From positions 1-40,543 of IMG/VR virus record IMGVR_UViG_3300024974_000004: a stretch of 40,543 nucleotides of DNA; one strand, 5' to 3'. The translations under genes were made by a program, and so were the position numbers. Under the pieces are notes generated by a model that did not search any database, was not told where the DNA came from, and worked only from the letters and a program-made list of their open reading frames with translations. Shown piece after piece: positions 30,491 to 31,072 of the stretch (positions are counted from its first letter, which is position 1; every line of letters starts with the position of its first letter). Origin of the DNA: a virus.

Positions 30491-30584
30491 GTCGTTTCCT
30501 TTCGGCGCCCAGTGTGGGCAGTGCGGACTCTAACCGTCCGGCAAACCCGCCCCGTTGCCAGGGCGGGAAAGCGGGGCGGTTAGG
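30491..30584 (-). ncRNA. three-hairpin RNA leader B before the 218-aa gene
   Basis: Read on the minus strand, P1 is CCCGCCC/GGGCGGG (30561-30567 with 30546-30552, 8-base loop TGGCAACG) followed by TTT. P2 is CGGAC/GTCCG (30536-30540 with 30524-30528). P3 is GCCCA/TGGGC (30515-30519 with 30507-30511), followed by GCC and an AAAGGA site. Helix order, the P1 loop length and parts of its sequence match leader A, while stem bases differ in compensating ways. P1 plus TTT could also terminate part of the transcript. Confidence 0.7.
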
Positions 30585-30977
30585 TCAGTCGCCGTAATAG
30601 AAATTCTGGGCGAAGGCGGTCACGTCCGCATATTCGTCGGCGGTCAGGTCGAGATCGGTCCAAGGCGTTCCCCAGTCCTGATATTGGAGCCGGGCGCTTG
30701 TCGGTTCGCCGCTCTCGACTTCGCCACGGATGCGCAACGCCGGGCCGCCCGTCGTCAGGAGCAATTCATATTCAGCGGGCCCGCATTCCGCGGCATGGCC
30801 GGGGTGGCGCCAGCTATCGCGGACAAGGATCGAAAGGATGGATTCGTCGATCGCTTGCCGGGCGTCGTCGATCGCGTCCCGCTCGCCTTCCGCAGCCTCG
30901 GCCGCATTGAGGGCCGCGACCATCGTGTGAATCTCGGCGAGCCATGCGCGGGCATTATCGCGTGCACTGTCAGTCAT
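30585..30977 (-). CDS. 130-aa early accessory protein of unknown function
   Basis: ATG 30977 follows a GGGAG site in leader A. The N-terminal 60 residues are a helical acidic segment (WLAEIHTMVAALNAAEAAEG). The C-terminal half is beta-rich, with EYELLLTTGGPALRIRGEV and ARLQYQDWGTPWTDLDLT, and a very acidic end (ADEYADVTAFAQNFYYGD). Overall strongly acidic, as are many DNA-mimic or inhibitor proteins. Function not recognised. Confidence 0.7.
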   Translation of the reverse strand: MTDSARDNARAWLAEIHTMVAALNAAEAAEGERDAIDDARQAIDESILSILVRDSWRHPGHAAECGPAEYELLLTTGGPALRIRGEVESGEPTSARLQYQDWGTPWTDLDLTADEYADVTAFAQNFYYGD

Positions 30978-31072
30978 CGTTCAATCTCCCATAGGCGCCC
31001 CGTCGCGGGGCATTGCGAACGCTCCAGGCGTTCAAGAAACCCGCGCCGGTGACAGCGCGGGAGACTTGAGCG
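30978..31072 (-). ncRNA. three-hairpin RNA leader A before the 130-aa gene
   Basis: On the minus strand, P1 is CCCGCGC/GCGCGGG (31055-31061 with 31040-31046, 8-base loop TGTCACCG) followed by TTTCTT. P2 is GAACGC/GCGTTC (31028-31033 with 31017-31022, 5-base loop). P3 is GCCCCG/CGGGGC (31006-31011 with 30997-31002, loop CGA), followed by GCC and a GGGAG site. It fills the whole gap between two genes. Compared with leader B, at least one P1 pair and one P2 pair change on both sides. I do not know its RNA family. Confidence 0.7.

Follow-up and report, generated by a model that had tools for sequence, protein, structure and literature searches.

Homologous structured leaders between exchangeable genes of a putative phage counter-defence operon

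In one operon of a 40.5-kb virus record (IMG/VR IMGVR_UViG_3300024974_000004), the gaps before two successive genes appear to carry related series of hairpins, raising the question of whether these gaps act as RNA structures, as stretches of DNA homology through which genes are exchanged, or as both. Throughout, "the window" is the whole analysed stretch of 40,543 nucleotides. Its genes include those for a PF12236 head-tail connector (portal) protein and a DnaB helicase, along with a match to terminase. All operon coordinates are on the minus strand, where a putative promoter (31320-31289) leads into genes for proteins of 57, 130, 218 and 117 aa and then into an HTH gene ending at about 29260. 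The gap before the 130-aa gene is called leader B and that before the 218-aa gene leader A. The features are as follows.

31289-31320, minus: putative promoter with overlapping inverted-repeat operator, placed from its sequence and from the same location in relatives
31320-31315, minus: putative -35 element, TTGACA, from sequence
about 31297-31290, minus: putative AT-rich -10 region, from sequence
31305-31289, minus: putative inverted-repeat operator CGATAT-GTTTT-ATATCG, overlapping the putative promoter
31268-31280, minus: lone P3 hairpin GCCCC-GCC-GGGGC, with the inferred transcript start some 4-5 nt away
31073-31246, minus: 57-aa first gene, variable slot 1
30978-31074, minus: leader B, from RNA models R3 and R2
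31032-31069, minus: leader B P1b and P1, TCAAG/CTTGA surrounding CCCGCGCUG/CGGCGCGGG (31061-31040)
31017-31033, minus: leader B P2, GAACGC-CTGGA-GCGTTC
30997-31011, minus: leader B P3, GCCCCG-CGA-CGGGGC
30585-30977, minus: gene for the 130-aa acidic protein (pI 4.2), slot 2
30491-30584, minus: leader A, from RNA models R2 and R3
30530-30583, minus: leader A outer stem P0, CTAACCG (30583-30577)/CGGTTAG (30536-30530), around P1
30546-30567, minus: leader A P1, CCCGCCCTG-GCAA-CGGGGCGGG
30525-30539, minus: leader A alternative P2, GGAC/GTCC, competing with P0
30507-30519, minus: leader A P3, GCCCA-CAC-TGGGC
29834-30490, minus: gene for the 218-aa core protein, kept in every complete operon
29481-29834, minus: gene for the 117-aa protein, with a conserved C-terminal core
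29260-29484, minus: gene at the operon end, encoding a small XRE/HTH protein of about 74 aa (Pfam HTH_31), putative autorepressor

Family-database searches matched neither the 130-aa nor the 218-aa protein to a known family, and the 57-aa protein had no match in Pfam, PHROG or NCBIfam. An earlier note, made from the letters of the window alone, had described two gaps of 94 and 95 bases holding the same order of three hairpins, and the gaps indeed measured 95 bases for leader B (31072-30978) and 94 bases for leader A (30584-30491). The P1 stems CCCGCGC/GCGCGGG and CCCGCCC/GGGCGGG, with 8-base loops TGTCACCG/TGGCAACG and a following TTT, were present as described. P3 hairpins were located at 31011-30997 (B) and 30519-30507 (A), and the lone P3 said to precede the first gene was found at 31280-31268, ahead of the 57-aa gene; relatives also have a matching P3 at the operon start. 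Within the window, the leader P1s were the sole sites combining a 7-bp stem with TTT, and folding z-scores ranked leader A 20th and leader B 46th among 1722 stretches, a moderate signal. The bare P3 pattern was no rarer in the window than chance. The two window copies by themselves prove little, and their significance comes from relatives.

Relatives were sought in viral contigs using the 218-aa protein, the leader patterns and alignments of the 117-aa and HTH proteins as queries. Leader copies occurred in at least 10 other IMG/VR phages, with one A and one B per record and 9-10 further copies of each leader. Both leaders were present at high similarity in eight phages (L031-L037 and L047), three near-identical records (L056, L060 and L066) were of a B-only type, and one distant phage (L074) carried both leaders in diverged form; L038 was a fragment nearly identical to the window. 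In 84,980 prokaryote genomes, neither a relative of the 218-aa protein nor an exact match to the leader-B pattern turned up, and the 218-aa protein had no relative among plasmids or isolated phages. Similarities to Brevundimonas and Caulobacter phages give only hints as to host. The portal proteins of relatives were just 32-35% identical to that of the window, indicating that the operon has been conserved or exchanged among distant phages.

The earlier note had treated the two gaps as versions of one element and proposed covariance-model searches as a check; this view stood, as models of one leader recovered the other. R2, built from A leaders only, detected B leaders at E values of 9e-12 to 1e-4, and R3, built from B leaders only, detected A leaders at 4e-11 to 9e-8, with most cross-detection values between 1e-8 and 1e-12. 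In the window, leader A scored 2.9e-33 against R2, which was trained on leader A, and was found by the B-trained R3 at 7.9e-10; leader B scored 4e-28 against R3, which was trained on leader B, and was found by the A-trained R2 at 1.3e-9. Because the model of each leader detects the other, A and B are homologous elements. Neither leader matched Rfam 15 at the gathering cut-off, and the matches listed at E values up to 5 were chance matches far below it.

Partition-function calculations separated the two leaders in their predicted layout. The three-hairpin arrangement originally drawn for both gaps was upheld for leader B, in which P2 paired with a probability of 0.98-1.0 across all copies. For leader A it failed at P2: pairing of GGAC with GTCC had a probability of about 0 in all 10 A copies, whereas P0 paired at about 0.95-1.0, because CTAACCG and CGGTTAG make a longer stem enclosing P1. 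As P0 wins over P2, leader A is predicted to be one long interrupted hairpin followed by P3, and leader B to consist of P1b with P1, then P2, then P3. The P2 arms of leader A nevertheless covary (GGAC/GTCC, GGUC/GGCC, GGUC/GACC), and this P2 may be a transient alternative structure. The minimum-energy fold of leader B in the window was a different one, in which the 5' arm of P1 pairs with the ribosome site. This competing fold was predicted for the B leaders of the window, L034 and L036 and was absent from the remaining B copies, for which reason we claim no switch for leader B; pairing of the 5' flank of P1 against the Shine-Dalgarno sequence was dominant in only three of 11 B copies and was rejected as a common feature.

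Selection on RNA structure, which had been proposed from paired changes in the two window copies, was borne out in the wider set by compensatory changes and by G-U pairs confined to the sense strand. Covariation exceeded both shuffled and slid controls in the A and the B alignments, the set being one of few, related sequences in which shuffle counts are not probabilities. P1 is a stem of 7-10 bp in every copy, yet its sequence has been replaced wholesale, and seven of the nine distinct P1 stems carry G-U pairs that are mismatches on the opposite strand, pointing to the sense-strand RNA as what is conserved. Whole-leader folding energies were no better for the sense than for the antisense strand. 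The strongest structural evidence comes from the diverged or odd copies. The L074 leaders share only 64-67% (A) and 40-47% (B) identity with the others and retain their folds: in leader A, P0 is kept through a G-U pair, P1 has become CCCGCCAGC/GCTGGCGGG and the alternative P2 reads GGTC/GACC rather than GGAC/GTCC, and in leader B, P1 is GACCGGA/TCCGGTC within CTCAA/TTGAG. In L032, the P1 of leader B is 10 bp long and closed by a UACG loop. An AU-rich linker between P2 and P3, as RNase cleavage would require, was not retained in leader A of L074.

With L074 set aside, mean identity was 92% for leader A and 81% for leader B, compared with 79% across the 218-aa gene and 63% when only its third codon positions are counted; leader A exceeded the third-position identity in 36 of 36 pairs. 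The leaders also mark the places at which the operons part. In complete operons the order is a promoter with operator, the lone P3, one or more variable genes, leader B, a variable gene and leader A, after which come, often, an extra small variable gene, then the 218-aa core, coupled small genes, the 117-aa core and finally the HTH gene. Pairwise alignments showed that blocks of homology begin and end at the leaders. Similarity between L032 and L033 continues until 44 nt past the start of the B core, their next genes are unrelated, and similarity resumes from leader A. In L031 and L035, leader A is a 92-nt island of 97.8% identity flanked by unrelated genes, and leader B is a shared 104-nt island in L033 and L037. 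Homology confined to an element between unrelated modules is what defines a recombination linker. An identical 22-nt P1 occurs in L033 A and L034 B, indicating that hairpin modules also move between leaders.

The genes between the leaders were variable in kind. Slot 2, occupied in the window by the 130-aa gene, encodes the antirestriction protein ArdA in L035 (3e-29), L037 (1e-36) and L060 (3e-21, truncated); L047 has a homologue of the L037 protein, L034 and L036 have weakly ArdA-like proteins (8.6e-5 for L034, under the cut-off), the window and L031 have the 130-aa family, and other phages carry proteins of no recognized kind. The leaders of different phages are followed by unrelated genes, which makes control by the leaders specific to a single gene, as the earlier note had suggested for each gene separately, unlikely. 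The 130-aa family is acidic (pI 4.2) and occurs in diverse phages; its fold was modelled confidently (pLDDT 90), and the model had no fold match or solved relative in the PDB. Upstream of 130-aa homologues in other phages there was no significant match to R2 or R3, indicating that the leaders belong to the operon and not to the 130-aa gene.

Several further sequences were seen around these genes. In the Prochlorococcus podophage P-SCSP1q (L101:1-435), the 130-aa homologue is the first annotated gene and sits in a cluster of small genes preceding the RNA polymerase gene. A weak leader-like element (L011:4197-4298; R3 E 0.02) lies one gene ahead of another 130-aa homologue and consists of a post-stop hairpin, a GCCC..GGGC hairpin and a ribosome site. 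L050, L057 and L064 (about 566-639 in L050) have a hairpin followed by TTGAACGCCTGATGCGTTC, resembling P1 and P2 of leader B, with model scores that were not significant (E 0.1-0.2). In L060 (1351-1692), as in L056 and L066, a deletion runs from within ArdA to the HTH region, leaving the operon without leader A and the 218-aa and 117-aa genes. Phage matches of the L074 218-aa homologue were considered as operons and rejected, being parts of very large proteins: in L094, L095 and L112 a segment of such proteins resembles its C-terminal half, which is reminiscent, by resemblance only, of polyvalent proteins (PMC5512222).

At the head of the operon, relatives have TTGAC(A/G) together with TATGTGCTGGCATATA at the position of the window's putative promoter, which a consensus promoter scan of the window did not detect. 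Operators of the form TATGTG-N4-CATATA overlap the promoter in relatives, and in three of them (L034:2106-2156, L036:3911-3961 and L047:4231-4281) two operator copies lie exactly 35 bp apart, the second being the upstream one; in L047 an altered operator spacer is identical in both copies. L031 has a different promoter without an operator of the TATGTG type. The HTH protein, whose Pfam HTH_31 match is weak (E 4e-4, under the family cut-off), probably represses the promoter via the inverted repeats. This layout suggests an autoregulated counter-defence operon; the last gene of L074 is only a candidate for the same HTH gene. For the window's own genes an anti-defence role is suggested by association only, ArdA standing in relatives at the slot where the window has the 130-aa gene.

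Together, these data lead us to propose, at a rough probability of 0.55, that the leaders act both as portable modules and as recombination junctions of an autoregulated phage counter-defence operon of early type. The structures, homology, conservation and exchange of unrelated genes are what the sequences show; the exact function of the RNA we infer as follows. Each leader starts on or close to the stop codon of the gene upstream, with a strong P1 that is extended by P0 (A) or P1b (B) and may form a 3'-end barrier, marking where that gene ends and protecting this end. At its other end is a short P3, which by a manual count in the copies read lies 16-22 nt ahead of the following start codon and may be a 5' stabilising or initiation hairpin for the downstream gene; the lone P3 would open the transcript. 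The RNA would in this way insulate neighbouring genes and provide whichever gene is inserted with an identical initiation context and with protection of its mRNA end, and as DNA the same 80-100 bp would provide homology junctions for swapping genes such as ArdA. Counting against the proposal are the competing fold that hides the ribosome site in the B leaders of the window, L034 and L036, the loss of the AU-rich P2-P3 linker from leader A of L074, and the finding that whole leaders fold no better in the sense than in the antisense orientation. A bolder version, which we put forward only tentatively, is that the leaders make up a novel family of phage RNAs and act as a standard socket into which counter-defence genes fit, supplying both regulated expression and swap homology, with structure and exchange sites evolving as one and the HTH repressor possibly also reading the RNA. 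If the proposal holds, the leaders could serve as a search tag, any gene with leader B on one side and leader A on the other being a counter-defence candidate, as several relatives illustrate with ArdA, and the operon would offer a testable case of phage gene-exchange junctions that are functional RNA structures and not chance homology.

The leaders might instead be recombination linkers only, conserved as homology for exchange, with hairpins that have no RNA function. The homology islands confined to leaders between unrelated genes fit this reading, as do the P1 modules common to A and B; linkers, however, require identity and not compensatory changes, and P1 stems that differ wholly and still pair, with their sense-strand G-U pairs, argue against it, making it unlikely.

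That P1 is an attenuator, an intrinsic terminator of partial strength that would lie between genes and make their expression stepped, had been raised from the TTT that follows it, and we now regard this as quite unlikely. Leader B of the window does have a 9-bp P1 stem followed by TTTCTT, with a T-score (3.20) close to that of a terminator-like hairpin near the L060 operon end (3.22), and it alone of the two window leaders passed the terminator scan. Leader A, on the other hand, has TTTGCC inside the P0 stem, and terminator-like sites were not enriched, with fewer matches than in shuffled DNA. Across relatives, a G+C-rich hairpin with a U-tract was found in most B copies, whereas A leaders, L032 B and L074 do not show this combination, the U-tract being missing from L032 B and from both leaders of L074. 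We keep the probability low because the U-tract belongs to most B copies and not to A or to the diverged leaders.

Translational operators, in which the HTH protein or another factor would bind the leader hairpins and shut down translation of the cassette while also binding the promoter, are plausible by analogy with Aca2 and on balance very unlikely. An HTH gene and operator lie within the operon, hairpins recur at three ribosome sites, and in the case of Aca2 an HTH protein reportedly binds both DNA and RNA; against this, the DNA operator has no sequence in common with P3 or P2. Elements of the put/nut antitermination type, acting in cis on RNA polymerase at the transcript start and between genes, would explain why a hairpin lies close to the very 5' end of the transcript and why one recurs behind each internal hairpin, but with no Rfam family match and a lone element that is a single short hairpin they are hardly credible.

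The combination proposed here, of structured leaders that double as recombination junctions, has partial counterparts. In cluster K mycobacteriophages, SAS and ESAS are repeated non-coding elements before the start codons of a subset of non-structural genes (PMC3203893); each genome has 11-19 copies of SAS, a 13-bp sequence close to the ribosome site, and the inverted repeats stand upstream of various gene families with function unknown (PMC3203893). Our leaders likewise place inverted repeats upstream of the starts of different gene families. They differ in number, with two leaders plus one lone hairpin in each genome, all within one operon, in their extra strong post-stop hairpin and in the lack of shared sequence; no 13-bp GGGATAGGAGCCC-like SAS sequence was present at the ribosome site in the leader sequences read. 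The boundary (linker) sequences of lambdoid phages (discussed in PMC3029335) are likewise short, conserved and set between exchangeable modules, whereas the leaders are covarying RNA structures at two successive gene junctions. As in acr-aca operons (PMC9410906), small variable counter-defence genes precede a terminal gene for a small HTH protein, here with a weak HTH_31 match, and an inverted repeat lies within the core promoter, whose position is inferred. Unlike acr-aca operons, the operon features ArdA and has structured leaders between its genes, and searches made without a dedicated Acr database turned up no protein of a recognized anti-CRISPR or Aca family. In archaeal viruses, conserved regulatory sequences ahead of anti-defence genes (PMC11065993) similarly mark a diversity of such genes, but these sequences include strong promoters (PMC11065993), whereas the leaders are transcribed inside one operon. 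None of these four systems has all the features. Hairpins also precede anti-defence genes in the Frpo/ssi single-stranded promoters of plasmid leading regions (PMC11541004); a Frpo-like promoter was rejected, as no -35 and -10 hexamers paired in G+C-rich stems were seen by eye.

Elsewhere in the window, four further features were recorded. The most structured stretch, at 23689-23782 on both strands (z -8.45 on the plus strand), comprises two adjacent G+C-rich hairpins and has no Rfam match at gathering. A long inverted repeat, GGATAGGCCCG..CGGGCCTATCC, at 32807-32900 is structured on both strands and terminator-like. On the plus strand, positions 168-238 match the Rfam DUF3800-IX RNA (RF02968; 44.2 bits against a gathering threshold of 36.8), and a tRNA-Arg (TCT) gene lies at 14621-14695.
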